IMG/VR virus record: IMGVR_UViG_3300027746_000038
Span: 1-42,419 of that record
Source of the DNA: a virus
Direction: 5' to 3' (one strand)
DNA: 42,419 nt
Part shown: piece after piece, positions 888 to 17,540 of the stretch
Layout of the letters: each line of letters opens with the position of its first letter
Position numbering within the stretch: the first letter of the stretch is position 1
Translations under genes and position numbers: made by a program
Notes under the pieces: model-generated
The model's database searches: none
The model's input: only the letters and a program-made list of their open reading frames with translations
What the model was told of the DNA's origin: nothing

Positions 888-1205
888 ATGAAACTTGAAA
901 TGACAGTACATGGGTTAAATGTTTTTTTAGAATTGGATGATGATGCATACAACGGTTTAGAAGTTTTACAACACGTAAAAGATCTAATTGACGAATTGTC
1001 AGCATATGACAAAGTCATGTTGTCCATTGTGTCCACAGCAAGCGATGAAGATTTTGAATCAGCTGAAGAAGAAAATGACGAATATGAAGACGTATCAGAA
1101 CAAGTGCATATTGCCCGCGCCACATGGCCTTTTCCAGAAGGTGGGTTGGATGACCAGGGTGCAGAAATAACAGCATTTGAGGAGCCTGAGCAACGAACAG
1201 CTTAA
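888..1205 (+). CDS. acidic hypothetical protein, 105 aa
   Basis: Not recognised. The ATG at 888 is chosen over an in-frame ATG at 852 because AAGGAG (876-881) lies six bases before it. The N-terminal 40 residues look like a small alpha/beta domain (MKLEMTVHGLNVFLELDDD), followed by a helix and a highly acidic stretch (SAEEENDEYEDVSEQ) and a Pro-rich end. The acidic tail is typical of phage early or DNA-mimic-like small proteins, but no function can be assigned. The late-type promoter at 842 suggests late expression. Confidence 0.7.
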   Translation: MKLEMTVHGLNVFLELDDDAYNGLEVLQHVKDLIDELSAYDKVMLSIVSTASDEDFESAEEENDEYEDVSEQVHIARATWPFPEGGLDDQGAEITAFEEPEQRTA

Positions 1206-1294
1206 CAAGCCAGTATCTCGCCGTGCTGATGGCGTATAATAGGACAAGTAATCAGCTGGGAACGCAAGTTCCTATTTTTATGGCTATTCACTTC

Positions 1295-1323
1295 TTGCAT
1301 ACCCTTCGAAAAGCCTGTATAAT
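1295..1323 (+). promoter_or_regulatory. sigma70 promoter, TTGCAT-17-TATAAT
   Basis: TTGCAT 1295-1300 and TATAAT 1318-1323 with a 17-base spacer. The ATG at 1330 is only six bases past the -10 box, so the transcript should begin at or next to the start codon (leaderless). Confidence 0.75.
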
Positions 1324-1329
1324 TACTGT

Positions 1330-1620
1330 ATGCTTGATAACAACATATTTAAACCCACTATAGATTGGATACACAGTGACTACAAAAGTAATCGAACTCG
1401 TTTTTGTTTGGAGAGCCTTGCTTGGGCTATATCTATTGGCTGTTCTATCACTATGGCCACAACCGTGCCTAATCCTCCTCTTCTCATCCTGTACCCCATT
1501 TGGATTGCAGGTTGTGCTATATACGCTTGGTGCGCTTATAGTCGTCGTTCCTTTGGTATGCTGGCTAATTACTGCCTGCTTACCGCAATCGACACCATTG
1601 GACTCATAAGGATGCTATGA
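1330..1620 (+). CDS. small integral membrane protein, 96 aa
   Basis: Predicted inner-membrane protein with three hydrophobic segments at about residues 28-45, 49-66 and 72-92, separated by the short polar turns NPP and SRRSFGM. Layout and motif spacing resemble the 73-residue protein at 5513 (both end in a polar-residue-bearing helix followed by IGxI), so the two look like distant members of one family reminiscent of half-transporters such as SemiSWEET or PnuC fragments; that resemblance is only topological. No ribosome binding site precedes the ATG, which lies at the expected transcription start. Its stop overlaps the next start in ATGA. Confidence 0.75.
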   Translation: MLDNNIFKPTIDWIHSDYKSNRTRFCLESLAWAISIGCSITMATTVPNPPLLILYPIWIAGCAIYAWCAYSRRSFGMLANYCLLTAIDTIGLIRML

Positions 1621-1838
1621 CGCACATGACTGATACGGAACTGGACACGTTGATAAACCAATTGGATGCTGTGTTGTTAGAGTACCAACACTGCCAACCA
1701 CATGAAGTGGCGGGCGCACTGCTGAGCAGAATAACCCTGTTAATGACCATGGACCCAGCTGTGGGCAAGCACATGCTCAAGTTCGTTTGGGAAAAGCTGG
1801 ATGAAATCGAGCAAGCAGATCCCAACAGTATGATATAA
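1617..1838 (+). CDS. hypothetical helical protein, 73 aa
   Basis: Starts inside the stop of the membrane protein gene (ATGA overlap), so it is translationally coupled to it; AAGGATG lies just upstream. The protein is nearly all helix (TDTELDTLINQLDAVLLEYQ, then ALLSRITLL), soluble and slightly acidic. No motif is recognised. Confidence 0.65.
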   Translation: MTHMTDTELDTLINQLDAVLLEYQHCQPHEVAGALLSRITLLMTMDPAVGKHMLKFVWEKLDEIEQADPNSMI

Positions 1839-1846
1839 GGACCCCA

Positions 1847-2026
1847 ATGTTAACACGGAAACTCAGCAAATATTGGCTAAGCGCAGATCACCAAGAATTT
1901 GAATTACTCAGCACATACACAGAAGATCTTGTGGAGTGGGCACGTTATAGAGACATATTAAACGACCGTCAATACCACTGCCATCTTGAAGCATTTCTCC
2001 AGAGATTCTACCCCACCGTAGAGTAA
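1847..2026 (+). CDS. hypothetical protein, 59 aa
   Basis: Short gene with AAGGA (1837-1841) upstream of the ATG, beginning 8 bases after the previous stop. The product, starting MLTRKLSKYWLS and ending RFYPTVE, is helical and charged, with several aromatic residues. It is probably co-transcribed with the two genes upstream. No family recognised; the RBS and tight spacing are the main support. Confidence 0.55.
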   Translation: MLTRKLSKYWLSADHQEFELLSTYTEDLVEWARYRDILNDRQYHCHLEAFLQRFYPTVE

Positions 2027-2152
2027 CAACCCGCGAAGCGGCTGCGAAAAAATTTTGAGCACTGGTAGTTATAAGCCCAGTATCTCCATGCGCTAGTCAA
2101 TGCAGGGCCTCGACTAGCTTTGGGCGTGGACAATTAAACATAACCAAACACC
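2027..2152 (+). other. short intergenic stretch with small dyads
   Basis: No gene seen. Contains CCGCGAAGCGG (2032-2042), able to form a small hairpin, followed by an A/T run, and CGACTAG/CTAGTCAA-like sequences around 2092-2115. It may be the 3' end signal of the operon starting at 1330, but a clean U-tract terminator is not visible. Confidence 0.3.
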
Positions 2153-2181
2153 TTGACTAGTGCGTTGAAGTCCTGTATACT
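2153..2181 (+). promoter_or_regulatory. sigma70 promoter, TTGACT-17-TATACT
   Basis: TTGACT 2153-2158, TATACT 2176-2181, spacer 17. GACT/AGTC can pair across the spacer. The ATG at 2188 lies six bases past the -10 box, again leaving no leader. Confidence 0.75.
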
Positions 2182-2187
2182 ATGCAT

Positions 2188-2262
2188 ATGAACTCGACCC
2201 ATATTGCCATGTTTGTGTTACTGATGTTACTGATACTGGATATCACGGTGAGACTACAATGA
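2188..2262 (+). CDS. 24-residue hydrophobic peptide
   Basis: Peptide MNSTHIAMFVLLMLLILDITVRLQ-type (24 residues): a short polar head, one hydrophobic span (MFVLLMLLILDI) and a charged end. It sits exactly at the predicted transcription start and its stop overlaps the start of the lipoprotein gene (ATGA), which suggests coupling. Small size limits confidence; it could also be merely the leaderless entry point into the operon. Confidence 0.5.
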   Translation: MNSTHIAMFVLLMLLILDITVRLQ

Positions 2263-2501
2263 CCTGGGCTAGATTCATAATACTGATCATCATATTGGCT
2301 TTGGCTAAAATGCTGATGGGTTGTGCTGTATATACTGTGGCCAATGGAGTAACTTACATAGCAACTGATAAGAGCTTAACGGATCATGCGTCTAGCACAC
2401 TGGTTTCGGCCGATTGTGATGCAGTTCGCGTGATTGAAAAAGGCACTTATTATTGTGAAGTTCGTGACATAAGCACTACGTATAATAGGAATCGATTCTA
2501 A
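2259..2501 (+). CDS. putative small lipoprotein, 80 aa
   Basis: N-terminal hydrophobic segment (residues 3-20) ending in a lipobox LMGC with Cys22, so it is probably exported and lipid-anchored. The mature part (TYIATDKSLTDHASS, then C, YYCE) fits a small phage and proteobacterial lipoprotein type with two further cysteines that may form a disulfide. Such proteins can modify the envelope during infection; no specific role is provable. It overlaps the peptide before it and the peptide after it by 4 and 1 bases. Confidence 0.7.
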   Translation: MTWARFIILIIILALAKMLMGCAVYTVANGVTYIATDKSLTDHASSTLVSADCDAVRVIEKGTYYCEVRDISTTYNRNRF

Positions 2502-2572
2502 TGTATAACTCCGCCAATTGGATAGTCTTAGTGTTATTGATAGCGTTCATATGCATACATGTATGGTACTAG
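2501..2572 (+). CDS. 23-residue membrane peptide
   Basis: Begins on the last base of the lipoprotein stop codon; AGGA at 2488-2491 is the likely ribosome site. The 23 residues are mainly one hydrophobic helix (WIVLVLLIAFICI). Third of four consecutive small membrane genes. No family recognised. Confidence 0.5.
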   Translation: MYNSANWIVLVLLIAFICIHVWY

Positions 2573-2575
2573 ACT

Positions 2576-2689
2576 ATGAAGCAATGGTTACGGACTATAC
2601 TGGCAGATGATCTATACTATACACTGGCATTGATATACGTGTGTATGATGTCTTTTGGCGTGGGCATGTTAGTAGCACTGATCTTATAA
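2576..2689 (+). CDS. 37-residue membrane peptide
   Basis: Three bases after the previous stop. A polar N-terminus (MKQWLRTILADDLYY) is followed by one hydrophobic span to the end (TLALIYVCMMSFGVGMLVA). Its stop overlaps a TATAAT and the first copy of the 13-bp repeat at 2692. Probably the last gene of this mini-operon. Confidence 0.5.
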   Translation: MKQWLRTILADDLYYTLALIYVCMMSFGVGMLVALIL

Positions 2690-2691
2690 TA

Positions 2692-2704
2692 GACCCCGCT
2701 GTGA
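2692..2704 (+). repeat. GACCCCGCTGTGA repeat, copy 1
   Basis: 13-bp element directly after TATAAT (2685-2690). Two more copies follow at 2914 and 3007, each downstream of a TATA-like sequence. Confidence 0.6.
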
Positions 2705-2913
2705 TGTTCTACATAATATAGTCTAATTTGGGTCGGGGAACTAATAATGTGTCTGCCAACAACGCTAGACTCAATCGGTCTTCCCGTATGTAGTAGCGTA
2801 TGCCCAGGGGCAGTGCTGAGTATGAGTAAGCACAATAGCACATGTGATCCATGACATCTGGATCTGTGGTGTATGAGTCATAACAGTATAAGCGCATAGT
2901 GTATATAGCAAAA

Positions 2914-2926
2914 GGCCCCGCTGTGA
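2914..2926 (+). repeat. GGCCCCGCTGTGA repeat, copy 2
   Basis: One base differs from the copies at 2692 and 3007. Flanked by GTATATAGCAAAA upstream and GGTATGCG downstream. Confidence 0.6.
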
Positions 2927-3006
2927 GGTATGCGTATATTGACTATGAACGCTTCGCTTGGCCGGACGTATACGAGTAGGCATGTGTACGTACACTATAC
3001 ACAAAA

Positions 3007-3019
3007 GACCCCGCTGTGA
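3007..3019 (+). repeat. GACCCCGCTGTGA repeat, copy 3
   Basis: Identical to copy 1. Preceded by CACTATACACAAAA, which resembles the flank of copy 2, and followed by AGGTGCG. Confidence 0.6.
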
Positions 3020-3320
3020 AGGTGCGTGATTATGGGGGAATATGTGAGTAACCATTAAAACTATGCCTGTCAGCCTCTCAGTCAACCAATTTTTTCTACC
3101 CTAAGCCCACCATAGCCCGCCACGGTTCTGAACCGAAACCTATATTCTGTTGCACTTTGTCACACAATATCACACTTTTCAGCACTTTTCCAGACCAGTG
3201 ACCTCACTGTATAGCTCTACACGCAAGATGGGAGTAGTCTACTCACACTAGACTGACAGTAGCTCAACTGTATATACACTATATACTACTATCTAGCACG
3301 GTGAAAAATAGTGTTCACGG

Positions 3321-3327
3321 TTAAATA
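3321..3327 (+). promoter_or_regulatory. T4-type late promoter, TTAAATA form
   Basis: CGGTTAAATACTATG, 24 bases upstream of the ATG at 3352; same TTAAATA core as at 842. Confidence 0.45.
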
Positions 3328-3351
3328 CTATGTCAAGACCGGAGGTGTACA

Positions 3352-3612
3352 ATGGCAAGAGGTATAGCACAAATACGTTTTCCTACTCATCAAGCGTATA
3401 TAAGTCAAACAGATGATAAACTAATATGCTTCAAACACAATGACCGTTCATGTGACTTTGAAATATTCCCAATGGATAATAACATAGACGCAAGTGATTA
3501 TCTACTAGAACCATTAAAGGGCTATGAATATCACATAGCATGGACAGAGGAATCAGAGATGGAAAAAGAACTGTGGACTCCCATTGTGTGTAGGCGGTCC
3601 AGTTCAATCTAA
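3352..3612 (+). CDS. hypothetical protein, 86 aa
   Basis: Start supported by a very strong ribosome site GGAGGTG (3341-3347) and a late-type promoter at 3321. The product begins MARGIAQIRFPTHQAYISQ and looks like a small beta-rich protein; it has two cysteines and acidic patches. No family recognised. It stands alone between the repeat region and a rho-independent terminator 32 bases after its stop, so it is probably a single-gene late unit. Confidence 0.65.
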   Translation: MARGIAQIRFPTHQAYISQTDDKLICFKHNDRSCDFEIFPMDNNIDASDYLLEPLKGYEYHIAWTEESEMEKELWTPIVCRRSSSI

Positions 3613-3643
3613 AGCACAAAAAGGGGCCGGGCCCTGCCCAACC

Positions 3644-3676
3644 AAAACCCGCATTGTCAAGCGGGTTTTCTTTTTT
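3644..3676 (+). terminator. rho-independent terminator
   Basis: Nine-base-pair stem (AAAACCCGC 3644-3652 with GCGGGTTTT 3661-3669), loop ATTGTCAA, then CTTTTTT. Ends the unit containing the 86-residue gene. Confidence 0.85.
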
Positions 3677-3876
3677 GGTTGCATAAAAACAACACCAAAA
3701 GTCGTCACCGTTCAGGTTAGTTAGTGCCAACTAACTTAGATCCCATCGCCCGCAGTCGCCGTCCACCCCCACTATGTTCGAACGATGCTTATATTATACG
3801 TCAAATAAGCCATGACGTCAACCGGGTCTTTCCCTAGTGTTGTGAAAATACAACACCGCGAGTGCGGATCTTTTGG
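3677..3876 (+). other. 200-bp gap with four hairpins
   Basis: No gene seen. Perfect hairpin AGTTAGT-GCCA-ACTAACT (3719-3736), inverted ACGTCA/TGACGT (3798-3818), GTGTTGT-GAAAAT-ACAACAC (3837-3856) and CCGC-GAGT-GCGG (3856-3867) followed by ATCTTTT. GTCAACCGGGTCTTT (3817-3831) recurs at 7818. The last two hairpins may be terminators just ahead of the next promoter. Confidence 0.5.
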
Positions 3877-3905
3877 TTGACTCTCTCCCACTTCTGCGCT
3901 ATAAT
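3877..3905 (+). promoter_or_regulatory. sigma70 promoter, TTGACT-17-TATAAT
   Basis: TTGACT 3877-3882 and TATAAT 3900-3905, spacer 17. The ATG at 3911 is five bases past the -10 box, so the message should be leaderless. Confidence 0.8.
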
Positions 3906-3910
3906 ACACT

Positions 3911-4240
3911 ATGATGAAAACAAAACGCACTGCCCGCAAAGACTCCAACTACATCATCTACGAAGCCGTTTCGGAACGTGGAGAGAACTACATTGGCTTG
4001 ACCCGCAAGGGAAGCACTACAGTCACAAAGGCTGTGAAAGAACGCTGGAGAAAGCACATCAGCAGAGCCCGCAACGAAAACAGACTGTGGGCCTTGTACA
4101 TCTACTTGAAGTCGGGTGGCCTGGACATGACTTGGGAGCACCGTGTGATCACTGTGATTAGGGGTCGTGCTGAAGCTTATGCATACGAACGATCCTTAGT
4201 CAAAGAGCTTGGCCCTACACTAAACGATCAATATCAATAA
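3911..4240 (+). CDS. GIY-YIG-like nuclease domain protein, 109 aa
   Basis: Probable one-domain GIY-YIG fold nuclease. The N-terminal part reads NYIIYEAV at about residue 13 and ENYIGLTRKG at about residue 25, matching the two beta strands of the family (the first as YIIY in place of GIY), followed by a conserved basic helix (RWRKHISRARNEN) and a late Glu in AYAYERSLVKELGPTLN, the usual place of the metal-binding acid. At 109 residues it is only the catalytic domain, without the DNA-binding tail of homing endonucleases. The start may be 3911 or the adjacent in-frame 3914; both lie at the transcription start with no ribosome site. Confidence 0.65.
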   Translation: MMKTKRTARKDSNYIIYEAVSERGENYIGLTRKGSTTVTKAVKERWRKHISRARNENRLWALYIYLKSGGLDMTWEHRVITVIRGRAEAYAYERSLVKELGPTLNDQYQ

Positions 4241-4248
4241 CCCACAGG

Positions 4249-4277
4249 TTGACTGGGTCTTTGATTCCTGCTATAAT
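4249..4277 (+). promoter_or_regulatory. sigma70 promoter, TTGACT-17-TATAAT
   Basis: TTGACT 4249-4254, TATAAT 4272-4277, spacer 17 (GGGTCTTTGATTCCTGC). CAGG (4245-4248) can pair with CCTG (4267-4270). Drives the GP88-like gene through a leader with GGAGCGAA at 4300-4307. Confidence 0.85.
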
Positions 4278-4309
4278 TATGGCATACACTAACAAACAAG
4301 GAGCGAACC

Positions 4310-5011
4310 ATGTTTAAATTGCTTAGTACTGCAAACCCCAAAATCCAAAAGGGCACGAAGCTTGGCTACCTATCATTCATCTTACACCTTGCACCAAGCA
4401 CCCTTAGCGGGCACAATACTTGCCCAAAAGCCACTAAAGGATGCATCGCCGCTTGCCTCAACACCGCAGGGCGTGGTGGTATGTTCAAACGTGGCGAGAC
4501 TACCAATGTCATACAGAAAGCCCGCATCCGCAAGACTAATTATTTCTACGATGACCGTGCGGGCTTTATGTTCGATTTGATGCAAGACATTAAAAAGGGT
4601 ATTCGTTTAGCCAACAAGCTGGGATTGGAGCCAGTGTTCCGTTTGAATGGTACTAGCGACTTGAGCTGGGAGAAGTATGAGATGACTGAAGGCAAGAACG
4701 TGTTTGACGTGTTCGCTGGCATTCAGTTCTACGACTACACCAAAGTACTTGGACGCAAGGTCAAGCATATCGAAAACTATCACTTGACGTTCTCCAAAGC
4801 GGACGGCAACGACAGTGATGTGGCAGAAGCCCTGCTACAAGGTATGTCAGTGGTTGCTGTCTACGATAAGATCCCAGAGGGCGTACCGAGTGCAGACGAA
4901 ACAGACTTGCGCTTTTTGGACCCCAAAGGCATTATGCTTGGTTTGAAGGCCAAGGGTCGTGCAAAGAAGGACTACAGTGGCTTCGTTATACGGTTGACTG
5001 AGTCAGCTTAA
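4310..5011 (+). CDS. GP88-like cysteine-cluster protein, 233 aa
   Basis: Resembles the phage and plasmid family called gene product 88: an early LSTANPKIQKG, then HNTCPKATKGCIAACLNTAGRGG (about residues 35-57) with three close cysteines (CX6CX3C), a NVIQKARIRKT helix and a C-terminal KKDYSGFVIRL. The cysteine triplet could bind metal or an Fe-S cluster; the biochemical role of the family is not established. The ATG at 4310 follows GGAGCGAA by two bases. The end of the gene contains the -35 box of the next promoter, so the terminal residues RLT are encoded by it. Confidence 0.65.
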   Translation: MFKLLSTANPKIQKGTKLGYLSFILHLAPSTLSGHNTCPKATKGCIAACLNTAGRGGMFKRGETTNVIQKARIRKTNYFYDDRAGFMFDLMQDIKKGIRLANKLGLEPVFRLNGTSDLSWEKYEMTEGKNVFDVFAGIQFYDYTKVLGRKVKHIENYHLTFSKADGNDSDVAEALLQGMSVVAVYDKIPEGVPSADETDLRFLDPKGIMLGLKAKGRAKKDYSGFVIRLTESA

Positions 5012-5022: not shown

Positions 5023-5052
5023 ACTAACATAGACACACAAAGGAGCGAACTT

Positions 5053-5250
5053 ATGTATGATATAGTTAAAAACCCAATTCCCCGTAGCGGATTGTTTGCT
5101 ACGCCCACCCTGGATCAGATTGCCAACCAAATTGATGGCTTCCCAGCAGAGACCAAAGCCCAGTTGTATTTGGTAATGCAACTGACACTGAACGCTTGCC
5201 ACAAGATTGTGGAAGACGAAATTTTGAACAAAGAGGTATTTGCACAATGA
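5053..5250 (+). CDS. hypothetical protein, 65 aa
   Basis: GGAGCGAA at 5042-5049 sets the start. Soluble, with a Pro-rich head (NPIPRSGLFATPTLDQI) and two helices. First of three genes coupled by overlaps (next ATGA at 5247). Not recognised. Confidence 0.7.
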   Translation: MYDIVKNPIPRSGLFATPTLDQIANQIDGFPAETKAQLYLVMQLTLNACHKIVEDEILNKEVFAQ

Positions 5251-5734: not shown

Positions 5735-5747
5735 AAAAGGAGCGAAG

Positions 5748-6074
5748 ATGTTAACGATACAAGACGTGAACAAGGCTATCATGCTACAAGAGTGGACCAA
5801 CGTAGAGTTGAGTAGCATGATTGATGCAGTCAAGTGGAACAAGGAACAATTGGCCCGACAGATCAAACGTTCGATCAGCCGTGGCGATAACGTGGAGTTC
5901 ACATCCAGCAAGACAGGCAGGCTCACACGTGGGTTTGTAACCAAAGTGGCCATCAAGTATGTCACAGTGGACACGGGCATGGGTATGTGGCGGGTGCCAG
6001 CGAATATGCTGACAAAGGTTGAAGCTGATCCCCTGGACGACTTCAACTATGTGGGATCCAAGCATCACTATTAA
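5748..6074 (+). CDS. hypothetical protein, 108 aa
   Basis: Start set by GGAGCGAA (5739-5746), one base before the ATG; no promoter box of its own is seen, so it is read with the genes before it. The N-terminal half is helical (LTIQDVNKAIMLQEWTNVELSS). The C-terminal half reads like an SH3/KOW-type beta barrel (GDNVEFTSSKTGRLTRGFV, then KYVTVDTGMGMWRVP), a shape common in small nucleic-acid or ribosome-associated proteins. That is a fold impression only. Confidence 0.65.
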   Translation: MLTIQDVNKAIMLQEWTNVELSSMIDAVKWNKEQLARQIKRSISRGDNVEFTSSKTGRLTRGFVTKVAIKYVTVDTGMGMWRVPANMLTKVEADPLDDFNYVGSKHHY

Positions 6075-7023: not shown

Positions 7024-7046
7024 TAGTTTTTTAAGTAGGAGCGAAA

Positions 7047-7325
7047 ATGAGTTGGAACAGTTTTATACAGCAAGTAGCAGAAGACAAAGCAAATGCAATA
7101 GTATTTGGCGGGGGTACCCGCATCTCCGGGCCCGCGCAACATGCGTATATAAAATATGGCAAGGGCTTACGTGCATTGCATAACGCAATAGACCGAGCCA
7201 TGCCCGCCGCCGTTGCAAAAGCAAAAGCACAAAAAAATGCAACATATATTGCATACTTAGAGAAGCAGGGCTACACAGTGCTAACACGTACAGAGACAGC
7301 GGAACTAGAGACCCTGCCCGCATAA
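7047..7325 (+). CDS. hypothetical protein, 92 aa
   Basis: GGAGCGAA at 7038-7045 is followed one base later by the ATG. Mostly helical, alanine- and lysine-rich (AMPAAVAKAKAQKNATYIAYLEKQGY), after a glycine-rich turn FGGGTR. Monocistronic between two spacer-repeat promoters. Not recognised. Confidence 0.65.
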   Translation: MSWNSFIQQVAEDKANAIVFGGGTRISGPAQHAYIKYGKGLRALHNAIDRAMPAAVAKAKAQKNATYIAYLEKQGYTVLTRTETAELETLPA

Positions 7326-7373: not shown

Positions 7374-7404
7374 TAGTTTTTACAGCAACAAAAGGAGCGA
7401 AACT

Positions 7405-7809
7405 ATGTTAGAAAACACTTTTACATTGCACACAAACGGCAACGGTTATTGGAGTAGTACAGCAAAAGCTGTAGACGTTGAGGCGTTGGACTTGCAATAC
7501 ATTACAAACGACAAGGACTTTGGCGAGCTGTGCATACACTTTGCAACAGACGACCTCACAGCAAATTGCTGGGACACAAGCACAATGGGCTTAATTTACA
7601 CAGACAAATTGTTTATGCAGGAGCTACGTGTTTACTTGCAAACTGTGGGCTTTACGGAAGCGGAAGCAAACGACGTTAATTACAGCGAGCAGGGGATGCA
7701 AAGCGACAACTATGTTAGCTGTGACGTAGGGGCTGTGTTTATAGCGGGCCTTATGCGTTTGGAGCCAGCACATGTGCAAGCAGTTTTTGTAGAGTGTGCA
7801 GACATTTAA
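7405..7809 (+). CDS. hypothetical protein, 134 aa
   Basis: Start fixed by GGAGCGAA (7394-7401); an upstream in-frame ATG at 7345 overlies the promoter and is rejected. Acidic, with a beta-rich N-terminal half (NTFTLHTNGNGYWSSTAKAV) and helical C-terminal half. No recognised motif. Confidence 0.65.
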   Translation: MLENTFTLHTNGNGYWSSTAKAVDVEALDLQYITNDKDFGELCIHFATDDLTANCWDTSTMGLIYTDKLFMQELRVYLQTVGFTEAEANDVNYSEQGMQSDNYVSCDVGAVFIAGLMRLEPAHVQAVFVECADI

Positions 7810-8065: not shown

Positions 8066-8085
8066 TGTATTTTAAGGAGCGAACA

Positions 8086-8361
8086 ATGCTAACAGTCAAA
8101 CAAGTGCGTCCAGTCTTAGAAGGCTATGCGGACACCATCGGCCGTAACAAGTCGGGCCACATAGTGCTACGTAGGGGTTTCTTTTACACACACGGCATGA
8201 GTGCAAGCAAGTTCGCAGACGCTTGCGTCAAGCGACTGGCGGGTGTGGGCATCACTGCTAGGGTGCGGGATGTGGATGAAGTGTGGCGGCCTTTTAGAGG
8301 CGGTGCTACTGTAGCACAAGGTAGCCACTTCCTAGCGGTATTGGAAGCGGTTGACGAGTAA
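8086..8361 (+). CDS. hypothetical protein, 91 aa
   Basis: GGAGCGAA at 8076-8083, ATG two bases later. Basic N-terminal half with a glycine-histidine turn (KSGHIVLRRGFFYTHGMS), then a helix (KFADACVKRLAGVG) and a strand pair; resembles small alpha/beta proteins. Ends in AVDE, encoded by the next promoter's -35 region. Not recognised. Confidence 0.65.
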   Translation: MLTVKQVRPVLEGYADTIGRNKSGHIVLRRGFFYTHGMSASKFADACVKRLAGVGITARVRDVDEVWRPFRGGATVAQGSHFLAVLEAVDE

Positions 8362-8379: not shown

Positions 8380-8411
8380 ACACTTATACAAACAAACACA
8401 GGAGCGAACCT

Positions 8412-8660
8412 ATGCTAGTCAAAGAACTTATTGAATCCCTCAAGTACATGGATCAGGATGCTGAGGTCCACTTCAGCTACTGCTATGGCGACCACTGGCG
8501 CACAGAGGTGGCCCCTAAAGCAAGCCGTGTGAACGAAGGCATTGTGGCATACAGCGAGTACCACCGCATGGACAAGCTGGTACAGGACGAAGAGGACTGC
8601 TACGACGAAGACACGGGCGACTACAAAGATGAAGTCCGCAGAGTAGTAGTGATTGACTGA
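8412..8660 (+). CDS. hypothetical acidic protein, 82 aa
   Basis: GGAGCGAA at 8401-8408, ATG three bases later. Begins MLVKELIESLKYMDQDAEVHF, a pattern seen in small conserved phage proteins of the T4-like group, and ends in an acidic loop plus strand (DYKDEVRRVVVID). Function unknown; the last two residues lie over the next -35 box. Confidence 0.65.
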   Translation: MLVKELIESLKYMDQDAEVHFSYCYGDHWRTEVAPKASRVNEGIVAYSEYHRMDKLVQDEEDCYDEDTGDYKDEVRRVVVID

Positions 8661-10256: not shown

Positions 10257-10290
10257 ATACACTTACACAAACAAATAAGGAGCGAAACTT

Positions 10291-10557
10291 ATGAACATCA
10301 GCACACTAGAGCAGTATGTGGATCAGAAGAACAAATGGCGTGGCGTCTTTAATCAGAAGCCCTTGAGCCTGTTGACCAAGGGGGATCGCCAGAGCATTGC
10401 CAACAGCATTGATTCGGAACTCAGCCCAGAGAACCTTACCTGCGACGGAGAGTTGCGTGGTGCACAGGTTCAGCAGAAGTTCCGTTACCTTACTCGCTGT
10501 GCAGAAGAACTGCTTTCGATTGATCCTACTGTAACCTTTTACGAAATGGGAGTCTAA
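10291..10557 (+). CDS. hypothetical protein, 88 aa
   Basis: GGAGCGAA 10279-10286. Helical, polar (TLEQYVDQKNKWRGVFNQKP; VQQKFRYLTRCAEELLS). First of four genes running head-to-tail to 11479. Not recognised. Confidence 0.65.
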   Translation: MNISTLEQYVDQKNKWRGVFNQKPLSLLTKGDRQSIANSIDSELSPENLTCDGELRGAQVQQKFRYLTRCAEELLSIDPTVTFYEMGV

Positions 10558-12663: not shown

Positions 12664-12741
12664 GGGCCCCTAGCTCATGTTGGTTAGAGCAGTGGACTCA
12701 TAATCCATTGGTGCCGTGTTCGACTCACGGGGGGCCCACCA
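12664..12741 (+). tRNA. tRNA with CAT anticodon, probably tRNA-Ile2 (AUA)
   Basis: Complete cloverleaf: acceptor GGGCCCC/GGGGCCC, anticodon stem GTGGA/TCCAT, loop CTCATAA with anticodon CAT at 12699-12701, T arm CCGTG-TTCGACT-CACGG, and encoded CCA. The core (GACTCATAATC) and the C4-G69, C5-G68 acceptor pairs resemble tRNA-Ile2, whose C34 is changed to lysidine by host TilS to read AUA, rather than elongator tRNA-Met. T4 carries a matching tRNA-Ile. Confidence 0.85.
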
Positions 12742-12745
12742 CACT

Positions 12746-12822
12746 CAGTCCTTAGCTCAGTTGGATAGAGCAACAGCCTTCTAAGCTGTAGGCCACTGGT
12801 TCGAATCCAGTAGGACTGGCCA
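12746..12822 (+). tRNA. tRNA-Arg(TCT)
   Basis: Acceptor CAGTCCT/AGGACTG, anticodon stem ACAGC/GCTGT, loop CTTCTAA with anticodon TCT at 12780-12782, T arm ACTGG-TTCGAAT-CCAGT, discriminator G and encoded CCA. Reads AGA/AGG. Only four bases separate it from the preceding tRNA, so the two are probably cut from one precursor. Confidence 0.93.
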
Positions 12823-12863: not shown

Positions 12864-12890
12864 AGCAGTATAGACAATAAGGAGCGAACC

Positions 12891-13325
12891 TTGAAACTAA
12901 TCTTAATCCTAATATCAATCAGCTTAGTTGGATGTGCTAGCGGCCCATCTAGTTACGCCCGACAAGAAGCTGATAAATTGCTAGCTAACCAAACCCGTGC
13001 TAAAGCCCTTATTGCTCAATGGGAAGCCGAAAGAGAAGTCTACAGAGAAAAAGAAAGACGGCTAGACGAAAAATGTGCTACCCAATCTAAACAGCCGATA
13101 ACTATTAATGCCGGCGAAATGAATATAGTAGAGGAAAAGGTAAAGTATATTCTTAAAGATCCTTGGAGCGCACGATTTCGAAATGTATCAAAGGCAAGTG
13201 CTTACGATCAATGCCGCAGGAATCTAGTGTATGTTGGTGAAGTCAACTCTAAGAACAGCATGGGCGGATATACAGGCTTTAGCCAATTTAGAGTGTGGCG
13301 CGACGAATCAGTCGGAGTTGACTGA
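12891..13325 (+). CDS. putative lipoprotein, 144 aa
   Basis: TTG start two bases after GGAGCGAA (12881-12888). A signal sequence (MKLILILISISLVGCAS) with lipobox LVGC predicts lipid anchoring at Cys15. A charged helix (residues about 25-60, probably coiled coil) precedes a C-terminal domain KYILKDPWSARFRN...NLVYVGEVNSKNSMGGYTGF. The last motif is common in small secreted bacterial and phage proteins of unknown role. It could alter the host envelope, for instance against superinfection, but this is not shown. The final GVD is encoded by the next -35 box. Confidence 0.7.
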   Translation: MKLILILISISLVGCASGPSSYARQEADKLLANQTRAKALIAQWEAEREVYREKERRLDEKCATQSKQPITINAGEMNIVEEKVKYILKDPWSARFRNVSKASAYDQCRRNLVYVGEVNSKNSMGGYTGFSQFRVWRDESVGVD

Positions 13326-13346: not shown

Positions 13347-13374
13347 TAACACACAAACACACACAGGAGCGAAG

Positions 13375-13623
13375 ATGATAGCAGAACAAACCCGCACAGT
13401 AACTTTCCAGGGCATCACATACGATGCCACACACGGTGGTCCATTTGATAGAGGCTCAGCAGACAGCTACTATGGTCGATCACAACAGCCCCACAAATAC
13501 CCCAACGGTACTGGCAACAAGCCCCGTATCGAAGCACCTGAACTGACTCTGCAAGAGATGCGTGAGTACTACAGAGGCTATGAGTACAATGAGTGCTTTG
13601 GCGATAAAAAGAACTGGGATTAA
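13375..13623 (+). CDS. conserved phage protein (GGPFDRGSADSYYGR type), 82 aa
   Basis: GGAGCGAA 13366-13373, ATG one base later. The stretch HGGPFDRGSADSYYGR at about residues 20-35 and YYRGYEYNECFGDKKNW at the end mark a small family common in phages and prophages; function unknown. Monocistronic. Confidence 0.7.
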   Translation: MIAEQTRTVTFQGITYDATHGGPFDRGSADSYYGRSQQPHKYPNGTGNKPRIEAPELTLQEMREYYRGYEYNECFGDKKNWD

Positions 13624-14162: not shown

Positions 14163-14191
14163 TAACACACTAACACAGCAAGGAGCGAACC

Positions 14192-14386
14192 ATGCAAGTA
14201 CACTTTATCAACTCAGGTCTAGGCACAGACAGCGGCTTCAAAGAAGTCGACGTGCAGAGCTTCAAAATGGATCATGACGATGCACCCTACGCCATCGTCA
14301 GTAACCCATTCTTTCCTGGTGATAGCCTACGTGCTGAGTACAACTACTTCAACGGATGCCTGCAATGGGTGGTTGACTTGGATTGA
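14192..14386 (+). CDS. hypothetical protein, 64 aa
   Basis: GGAGCGAA 14182-14189. A small beta-rich acidic protein (MQVHFINSGLGTDSGFKEVD; NYFNGCLQWVVDLD). The last residues VVDLD overlie the next promoter. Not recognised. Confidence 0.6.
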   Translation: MQVHFINSGLGTDSGFKEVDVQSFKMDHDDAPYAIVSNPFFPGDSLRAEYNYFNGCLQWVVDLD

Positions 14387-15131: not shown

Positions 15132-15163
15132 TAACACTTAAACAGCAAACAGGAGCGAACCTA

Positions 15164-15376
15164 ATGCGTACACAAACTACTAGACTACTGGACATGATGG
15201 CGGATGGTGTCATCAGTGCCCAAGCCGTTGCAGAGATGGCACTCAGCTACATGTCAGAAGATGACGTGGCAGACATGATGAGAAGCAACGATATCCTCGA
15301 GGATGAGGATCTTGACGAGTATGATGGACAACCCGACGAAGCTCAGGAGTGGGCAGACTTTGACGCAGACTGCTAA
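15164..15376 (+). CDS. conserved small phage protein (YMSEDDVADMM type), 70 aa
   Basis: GGAGCGAA 15152-15159. The core LLDMMADGVISAQAVAEMAL, then SYMSEDDVADMMRSN, recurs in small phage proteins across unrelated hosts; a very acidic tail follows. Function unknown; the acidic nature could fit a protein-inhibitor role. Confidence 0.65.
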   Translation: MRTQTTRLLDMMADGVISAQAVAEMALSYMSEDDVADMMRSNDILEDEDLDEYDGQPDEAQEWADFDADC

Positions 15377-15836: not shown

Positions 15837-15869
15837 ACATACTTACACAACACAATGGAGCGAAACATT

Positions 15870-16193
15870 ATGGTAACAGCAGAACAGATTGTAAATGGTC
15901 TTAGCCTAGCTAACAAGGCATCAACAGACATGTACACCAAAATTGGTGGCGATGGCTATGCTTGCGGCTTTGCATGGGTAGACGTGTTCGTGGACCGTAC
16001 CAATTCAAAGCAGGCCAAAGAGCTGATCAAGGCAGGGTTCAAGAAGGACTACAAACCCAAGTGCCTCAGCTATTGGAATCCAGGCCAATTGGGTGTGCAG
16101 AACATAGACATCAAAGAAGCGGGTGCGGATGCCTACGCCACTTACCTAAAAGGTCTTGGCTTAACTGCCTACAGTGGCTCACGTTTAGATTAA
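15870..16193 (+). CDS. conserved phage protein (RTNSKQAKELIKAGFKKDYKPK type), 107 aa
   Basis: Start at the ATG after GGAGCGAA (15857-15864); the earlier ATG at 15855 overlaps the ribosome site. The motif GFAWVDVFVDRTNSKQAKEL, then AGFKKDYKPKCLSYWNP and QNIDIKEAGADAYA, marks a phage family of unknown function that pairs a beta sheet with helices; basic surface residues would fit nucleic-acid binding. Confidence 0.7.
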   Translation: MVTAEQIVNGLSLANKASTDMYTKIGGDGYACGFAWVDVFVDRTNSKQAKELIKAGFKKDYKPKCLSYWNPGQLGVQNIDIKEAGADAYATYLKGLGLTAYSGSRLD

Positions 16194-16202
16194 CCAAATC
16201 AC

Positions 16203-16231
16203 ATGACAGACCCTCCCGGGTCTGTTATAAT
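16203..16231 (+). promoter_or_regulatory. sigma70 promoter with 8-bp spacer inverted repeat
   Basis: ATGACA 16203-16208, TATAAT 16226-16231, spacer 17. ACAGACCC-TCCC-GGGTCTGT (16206-16225) is the strongest spacer dyad of the set. Confidence 0.88.
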
Positions 16232-16264
16232 GTAAATATTAATTAACACGCAAAGGAGCGAACA

Positions 16265-17143
16265 ATGGCGAAAGTCGTAACTAGTAAGATGCTGATGGCC
16301 CTGCAAGCAGAAGTCAAAACGCTTGAGGTAGAGGCTGTGAAGAAAGATCTTTCAAATGAAACAGATGAAGAGATCCTCACACGTTTGAGAGATCGTTTTG
16401 AGATTTTGGACGACATGACTCGTGCTGTAAAGTCGGGCAAGGTACGTGCTATGATTGTCACAGGTCCTCCGGGCGTGGGCAAGTCATTTGGTGTGGAGTC
16501 AGTGCTGGCAAAGCATGATGTGTTTGCTAATGTGGCACAGGACGAGAAGCTGAAGAAGTACGAAGTAGTCAAGGGCGCAATGTCAGCATTGGGTCTCTAC
16601 TCAAAGCTGTATCACTACAGTGACAAGAAGAACATTATCGTGTTTGATGACTGTGATTCAGTGCTGTTGGATGACTTGAGTCTTAACATTCTCAAAGCCG
16701 CATTGGACACCAGTGCCAAGCGCATGATACACTGGAACACTGACAGCCATTTGCTACGCAGAGAAGGCGTGCCAGACAGCTTTGAGTTCAAGGGCGGTGC
16801 AATCTTCATTACCAACATCAAGTTTGATCATGTGCGAAGCAAGAAGTTGCGTGATCACTTGGAAGCATTAGAGTCACGTTGCCACTACTTGGACCTTACC
16901 ATTGACACTGAGCGTGAGAAGATCCTACGCATTGAGCAAGTGGTTAACGAGTGCGGTATGCTGGACAAGTATGAGTTCGAACCCTACCAAGCTATGGAGG
17001 TAGTGGACTTTGTCAAGGCCAACGTTAGTAGACTACGTGAGCTGAGCTTGCGTACAGTACTTAAGGTAGCGGACTTGAAGCATGGCTTCCCGGACAAGTG
17101 GCGGGCAGTAGCAGAGGTAACGTGTATGCGCAACAGCCGCTAA
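16265..17143 (+). CDS. AAA-type ATPase, 292 aa
   Basis: P-loop ATPase. Walker A GPPGVGKS at residues 67-74, Walker B NIIVFDDCD at about 123-131, and a possible sensor-1 Asn in FITNIKF near 180, followed by arginines (LESRCHYLDLTID) and a helical C-terminal domain. T4-like phages of aquatic bacteria often carry such a protein; it may remodel a host or phage complex, but no partner is known. GGAGCGAA (16255-16262) precedes the ATG. It is the last gene of the plus-strand array, and the anti-leader RNA region follows its stop directly. Confidence 0.82.
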   Translation: MAKVVTSKMLMALQAEVKTLEVEAVKKDLSNETDEEILTRLRDRFEILDDMTRAVKSGKVRAMIVTGPPGVGKSFGVESVLAKHDVFANVAQDEKLKKYEVVKGAMSALGLYSKLYHYSDKKNIIVFDDCDSVLLDDLSLNILKAALDTSAKRMIHWNTDSHLLRREGVPDSFEFKGGAIFITNIKFDHVRSKKLRDHLEALESRCHYLDLTIDTEREKILRIEQVVNECGMLDKYEFEPYQAMEVVDFVKANVSRLRELSLRTVLKVADLKHGFPDKWRAVAEVTCMRNSR

Positions 17144-17159
17144 GGCTCGAGTGTACAGT

Positions 17160-17319
17160 ACAGCAAGCAGCCACTAAGAGCTGTCAGCTGTAGCAGTAGG
17201 ATAGGCTAGTAGATTCGCTCCCGAACGCCTGTCCCGAAACACCAAGCCAACACGGCAAGGTGTTTGGATCTAGGAACAGCAAGCCCGATTCGCTCCCGGC
17301 ATGTTCCTAGATTTTTTTT
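17160..17319 (+). ncRNA. candidate anti-Shine-Dalgarno regulatory RNA
   Basis: Structured 3' region after the ATPase gene. Hairpin 1: ACAGC-CAGC/GCTG-GCTGT (17160-17191). Then a free segment with GATTCGCTCCCG (17212-17223). Hairpin 2: AAACACC-GCC/GGC-GGTGTTT (17237-17265). Hairpin 3 is the terminator (17268-17319), whose 23-base loop shows a second GATTCGCTCCCG (17287-17298) closed by GCC/GGC. TTCGCTCC is the exact complement of GGAGCGAA, found before 14 start codons in this window. No convincing promoter is seen (only TAGGAT at 17197), so it may be a processed 3' UTR. Function is inferred. Confidence 0.6.
17268..17319 (+). terminator. strong rho-independent terminator with anti-SD loop
   Basis: Perfect 11-bp stem ATCTAGGAACA (17268-17278) / TGTTCCTAGAT (17302-17312) followed by a run of T to 17319. 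The 23-base loop contains GATTCGCTCCCG. Confidence 0.92.
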
Positions 17320-17540
17320 GATTTGAATATCGAAAACAAAATGTCTCGGGAAGGTTGAGAAAAAGAAAAGAATTGGCGAGGGGGGTCGGGGCATATAATA
17401 TATACACTGTTGTATTTTTACAACAGCGCATGCCTTTTTCAACCACCCATAGGTGCCAAATCACCCCACCAAATCTATAAGTACTTCTTTATAATTTTTT
17501 ACGCGGTTCCTCTACAGGTACGCAGGACCATTTCGGACAT
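17320..17540. other. 220-bp gap with promoter-like box and hairpin
   Basis: No gene seen. GGGGGGTCGGGG (17380-17391) is followed by TATAAT (17394-17399) without a good -35, then a perfect hairpin CTGTTGTA-TTTT-TACAACAG (17407-17426). Minus-strand reading frames here lie antisense to the structured RNA and have no ribosome site. Confidence 0.4.
17479..17507 (-). repeat. AAGTACTT repeat element, copy 1 (diverged)
   Basis: AAGTACTTCTTTATAATTTTTTACGCGG on the plus strand; resembles the copies at 17795 and 18102 in the order AAGTACTT, T-run, CGC. Confidence 0.45.

Follow-up and report, generated by a model that had tools for sequence, protein, structure and literature searches.

The 3′ end of the nrdC.10 mRNA in this phage genome is likely to give rise to a base-pairing RNA, one of a phage family that would repress a regulon of early mRNAs. 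Within the window, which is the whole 42,419-nucleotide stretch of DNA analysed here, positions from about 17199 to 17319 would encode a small regulatory RNA that comes from the tail of this transcript and stops at an intrinsic terminator, and in which two hairpins each show a 9-nt loop, A-TTCGCTCC. The loops are predicted to pair in trans with the extended Shine-Dalgarno sequence, GGAGCGA(A), which some 14 early mRNAs carry, each from its own promoter. By covering the Shine-Dalgarno bases, this pairing would block ribosome binding and initiation, and it might also leave the mRNA open to degradation. As the parent gene shares its promoter type and leader with the array, the RNA would accumulate with the early transcripts and repress them, its own parent included, and this collective negative feedback would become early-gene shutoff. 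Such an RNA could probably switch the whole early-gene set off together. We infer that the RNA is made and processed, that it represses, that it acts in the late early phase and that a chaperone is involved.

The starting point is the distribution of a single short sequence. On both strands of the window, GGAGCGAA has 16 exact matches, as compared with 0.72 expected, and the maximum in 100 shuffles of the window was 4. Fourteen of the 16 matches are on the plus strand, each 9-13 nt 5′ of a start codon. The remaining two, in reverse complement, fall at 17214-17221 and 17289-17296, within one 83-nt part of the RNA-like region. The original prediction had described two exact copies of GATTCGCTCCCG with a complement before 14 start codons; both copies were found, at 17212-17223 and 17287-17298, and all 14 plus-strand sites are where it placed them. 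These leaders lie at 4300-4307 (before a GP88-family gene, 4310-5011), 5042-5049 (gene 5053-5250), 5739-5746 (gene 5748-6074), 7038-7045 (gene 7047-7325), 7394-7401 (gene 7405-7809), 8076-8083 (gene 8086-8361), 8401-8408 (gene 8412-8660), 10279-10286 (gene 10291-10557), 12881-12888 (gene 12891-13325, with a TTG start), 13366-13373 (gene 13375-13623), 14182-14189 (gene 14192-14386), 15152-15159 (gene 15164-15376), 15857-15864 (gene 15870-16193) and 16255-16262, the last of these belonging to the RNA-bearing gene itself. The early array also contains two tRNA genes (Met-CAT and Arg-TCT, 12664-12822).

The RNA-bearing gene, on the plus strand at 16265-17143, is a homologue of T4 nrdC.10 (phrog_1250, AAA-like) and the last gene of the array, and the RNA lies in its 3′ UTR. 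Of the 14 leaders in the window, 13 lie behind a TTGAC-N-TANNNT promoter, and the nrdC.10 leader lies behind a sigma-70-type promoter of the form ATGACA-17-TATAAT (16203-16231, plus strand). Since each leader has its own promoter, the array consists of separately promoted, short-leader genes of early type. Across the relatives, a sigma-70-type TTGAC/TANNNT promoter precedes 278 of 318 leaders, whereas a scan for that promoter type alone found none directly upstream of 102 RNAs. This difference argues that the RNA is probably derived from the 3′ UTR of nrdC.10: it lies at an mRNA 3′ end, carries that mRNA's terminator and has no TTGAC/TANNNT promoter of its own. The nrdC.10 promoter is therefore its probable source. 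The leader of nrdC.10 is itself GGAGCG in 78 of 88 cases.

Hairpin 1 of the RNA (17199-17234, plus strand) has a stem of GGATAGGC and GCCTGTCC and a 9-nt loop, ATTCGCTCC, at 17213-17221, closed by the pair G17212-C17222. Hairpin 2 (17268-17319, plus strand) is the intrinsic terminator, in which the same 9-nt loop, ATTCGCTCC, at 17288-17296 is followed by a run of eight T. The second motif copy thus lies in the terminator loop as originally proposed, but the placing of the first copy between hairpins did not hold: it is enclosed instead by GGATAGGC (17199-17206) paired with GCCTGTCC (17227-17234), and the equivalent stem in relatives covaries perfectly around the same loop. Between the two, a motif-free middle hairpin is predicted at 17237-17265, which is not conserved and is absent or replaced in many relatives, and an optional 5′ hairpin predicted at 17160-17191 is variable and missing in several of them (both on the plus strand). 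In the predicted minimum free energy fold of hairpin 1 in the window, TTCG and CGAA also pair inside the loop, leaving the first copy only partly open. Because of this partial self-folding, copy 2 is probably the more open of the two in the window, with a mean predicted probability of being unpaired of 0.79, as compared with 0.62 for copy 1.

Comparison of the relatives shows stems that covary around loop letters that stay fixed. In the common form of hairpin 1, all six outer pairs have changed on both sides, and 100% of cells are paired. Covariation there scores 0.837, as compared with 0.216 for shuffles and at most 0.16 for slid versions. The hairpin 2 architecture is common to 105 distinct RNAs, and single-sequence folding of these placed the 7-nt core entirely within an apical loop in 61 of them for loop 1 and in 80 for loop 2. 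The motif is displayed in 9-nt apical loops of the form A-N-TCGCTCC, closed by G-C or, in parts of locus L028, which has three hairpins of this type, by A-U. The YUNR U-turn is known from antisense RNA loops, and the UUCG or CUCG of these loops presumably fits it. On these sequence comparisons, the identification of the element as a conserved structured RNA with a terminator is well supported.

In order to sample relatives without reference to the RNA, IMG/VR was searched with the nrdC.10 homologue protein alone, which gave 33 loci. Exact copies of TTCGCTCC lie 14-171 nt 3′ of nrdC.10 in 30 of these, and TCGCTCC is kept after the gene in 31, one locus (L027) having the one-letter variant ATCGCTCC in place of the exact sequence. 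The two most diverged loci (L030 and L032, 46-49% identity) have neither loop nor leaders. Two pattern scans for paired loops enlarged the set, protein-found loci included, to 105 distinct RNAs with a terminator, whose family members are related and whose counts are not independent events. Although the scans used the RNA motif alone, 103 of the 105 RNAs lie 4-97 nt after nrdC.10 (62-100% identity); the other two are cut by a contig end.

Both pattern scans fixed the identity of the loop by construction, so that the evidence for a conserved loop comes from the loci found by protein and from two further scans in which six loop letters were masked. The RNA-like matches in the masked scans carried TTCGCT (106 and 29), ATCGCT (6) or CTCGCT (1), and thus only the first letter varies among them; the remaining matches were coding DNA or chance. 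Judged from these sequences, the family is present as well over 100 distinct phage RNAs, many of them from uncultured giant bacterial viruses. Among cultured phages, neither the window nor the RNA gave a nucleotide match. The nearest cultured relatives examined, PA5oct (16.8 kb around nrdC.10) and Melnitz-3 (whole genome), have neither a TCGCTCC loop in the RNA orientation nor a GGAGCGA leader class. There were also 28 bacterial-genome matches, and those inspected resemble unrelated repeats and not the RNA.

The leaders correspond closely to this loop. They carry GGAGCGA-N, in which the variable base N (A 220, C 50, G 24 and T 16 of 310) faces the variable base of the loop, and loop and leader are invariant over the same 7 nt. 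Of 1102 GGAG leaders on the strand of the RNA, 392 are GGAGCGA, the next class having 64, and on the opposite strand 13 of 212 are. Upstream of the RNA there are 291 GGAGCGA leaders, as compared with 19 downstream. Most of the large records examined have these leaders concentrated no further than about 15 kb from the RNA and contain few at other places; in one record, G017, none were found. Among distinct nrdC.10 loci, at least two GGAGCG leaders occur in 21 of 23 with the RNA and in 0 of 73 without it, in a comparison of loci that are related, not independent, and of which those lacking the RNA are for the most part more diverged. L028 (nrdC.10 about 60-65% identical) is the most distant member that has the RNA at the nrdC.10 site; its leaders are GGAGCGT/C and the pairing is down to 6 nt, GGAGCG with CGCTCC.

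As the original prediction had proposed, RNA-RNA interaction was computed against shuffled controls, and the predicted duplexes between the loop and the 14 leaders average −13.2 kcal/mol, against −5.8 ± 0.5 for shuffled loops. Its refuting case, in which relatives would keep the leaders beside an unrelated loop, was searched for and none was found; the only locus where the loop is absent from the usual site, L382, has it about 600 nt further on. Selection for complementarity between loop and leader is thereby well supported, as is the display of an accessible seed complementary to targets encoded elsewhere. The central claim, that the loops pair with the extended ribosome site of the array, thus survives every comparative test available, through fixed loops on covarying stems, the co-occurrence of RNA and leaders, the shared 7 nt and the occurrence of the loop in three 3′-UTR settings described below.

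The search for covariation between loop and leader bore out only their co-conservation. No compensatory change of both together was seen among 80 diverged nrdC.10 loci, because both elements are nearly invariant. Given this lack of a true compensatory change, the hairpins might instead bind a protein, of phage or host, which contacts the leaders as well, so that the resemblance would not reflect RNA-RNA pairing. Such a protein could further account for the letters kept outside the loop, CCAACG..CGGYAA and YAA-RYCCG..CGG, which suggest a structured internal loop that something may recognise. However, a protein site shared by hairpins and leaders would make them alike, as in CsrB-type sponges, whose repeated identical hairpin loops copy the leader motif and titrate a protein. 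The loops of the phage RNA are not identical to the mRNA site but are its complement, and the variable positions of loop and leader also correspond, which makes protein binding as the source of the resemblance unlikely.

The same hairpin was also found outside the nrdC.10 setting. In family B (71 distinct records) it follows a gene for a winged-helix (HTH_39) protein, about 92 codons long, with a covariation score of 0.417 against 0.115 for shuffles, and in family C it follows a gene some 100 codons long that has its stop codon at the hairpin. In several genomes the two are about 7 kb apart, among GGAGCGA leaders. The loop is thus found in three different 3′-UTR settings, those of nrdC.10 and of two unrelated genes. 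Single 14-mer matches, considered as a chance control, were dropped from that use; they included two RNA families besides that of nrdC.10.

These settings bear on whether the RNA might act only in cis, as a stability or feedback element in the 3′ UTR of the nrdC.10 mRNA, with the leaders alike through duplication of promoter-leader cassettes. The GGAGCG leader of nrdC.10 itself would fit such a role, as would the existence of other phages that have repeated leaders and no antisense loop. In L374, L383 and L377, for example, there are other repeated extended leaders and no matching antisense loop in the DNA examined, so that such an RNA is not to be assumed from an extended leader by itself. 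Yet the host genes of families B and C mostly lack a GGAG leader while the loop and the array leaders persist, and the leaders vanish where the RNA is absent. Furthermore, an 11-15-nt complement, GGGAGCGAATC, immediately precedes the start codon of genes whose promoter is T4-late-like (TAAATA). These include a CsgF-family gene (PF10614) and genes for small membrane proteins, and in several genomes such sites and the RNA are separated by more than 60-200 kb. Chance would give about two 11-mers in the 14 records scanned, and the weight of these sites therefore lies in their position at start codons and not simply in their count. Complements on genes tens to hundreds of kilobases away make a role purely in cis quite improbable.

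The RNA could also pair with the leaders and activate or protect the mRNAs. The predicted pairing, however, spans exactly the Shine-Dalgarno bases, and in characterised cases such as IsrR translation falls (PMC9410917), so that activation is very improbable. That the 15-bp word serves a repressor as its DNA operator, lying close to promoters in either orientation, is scarcely credible, since even with CCGGGAGCGAATCGG near late-type promoters being the reverse complement of the hairpin top, the array leaders keep only GGAGCGA at ribosome-site spacing, the stem covariation indicates selection on RNA folding and L028 keeps the loop only.

Within the reading of the RNA as a trans-acting repressor, a broader and more tentative possibility is that the loop is a genome-wide timing code, installed behind at least three unrelated genes in giant phages. 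Early mRNAs, with a 7-8-nt match, would then be shut off first, and a few late-type genes with an 11-15-nt match would answer to the RNA or soak it up.

Known RNAs resemble the proposed one in part. In Gram-positive bacteria, IsrR and RsaE use single-stranded C-containing motifs, some in hairpin loops, to pair with Shine-Dalgarno sequences and inhibit translation (PMC9410917). The phage RNA likewise has several C-containing motifs complementary to the Shine-Dalgarno sequence, its loop ...CGCTCC facing GGAGCG, and a terminator at its end; unlike those RNAs, it is phage-encoded and lies in a gene's 3′ UTR, and whereas they target ordinary ribosome sites, the phage leaders have a dedicated extension (CGA) that matches the loop. 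It has no Rfam 15 match at the gathering score, to RsaE, IsrR or any other family, and a permissive Rfam search of 17100-17420 gave a chance match only. Yfr1 and Yfr10 of cyanobacteria similarly present an invariant UCCU-containing motif in a loop or single strand, with variable surroundings and many targets, but differ in motif and hosts; many contacts of the Yfr2 network fall within coding sequence, and that paper describes no leader code (PMC6778093). The phage sRNAs PreS (lambda), VpdS (VP882), PAK_P4as15, P22 sar and P1 c4 are also phage-encoded and base-pairing, several acting on translation, but the examples considered from the review that covers them act on host genes or on one or a few phage genes, and none of these is a regulon-wide early-gene switch in giant phages (PMC12197685).

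Searching the literature for the motif and for phage RNAs of this type gave nothing relevant, and the papers searched report no phage regulon in which a single RNA reads a dedicated leader code. Shine-Dalgarno-targeting RNAs with C-rich loops and phage sRNAs are thus already known, and what would be new is an RNA-read leader code across a regulon. The joint shutoff of early genes in lytic phages is usually put down to sigma factors, to proteins such as RegA or to nucleases. If the present reading is true, an RNA shuts early genes through a letter code in the ribosome site of every member, and early-to-late switching in uncultured giant phages becomes directly testable with short synthetic reporters. 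The combination of a ANTCGCTCC loop with GGAGCGA leaders also offers a search handle for regulons from sequence alone.

Several further observations were made in the relatives. CsgF-like genes with a TAAATA promoter and an 11-15-nt complement occur in L498, L499, L501, L038, L070, L105, L109 and L111. A phage csgF has been described in Melnitz, with a suggested role in lysis timing (PMC9004378); the Melnitz genome was checked and does not itself carry the RNA. In L374, another nrdC.10 phage, seven CTGGAGAA leaders lie at 1195-4556, several before genes with near-identical starts, and L383 and L377 have repeated early leaders, GGAGCAG and CGGAGCAA, which are possibly different leader codes. The array leaders of L001 and L002 include a second frequent class, GGAGCACA, with 6 copies, which the loop does not fully match. 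Finally, about 25 short ORFs of 65-95 codons overlap in a long run at positions 3662-9074 of L028, many of them after CCAGTGAGAGAY or CAGTGAGAACY.
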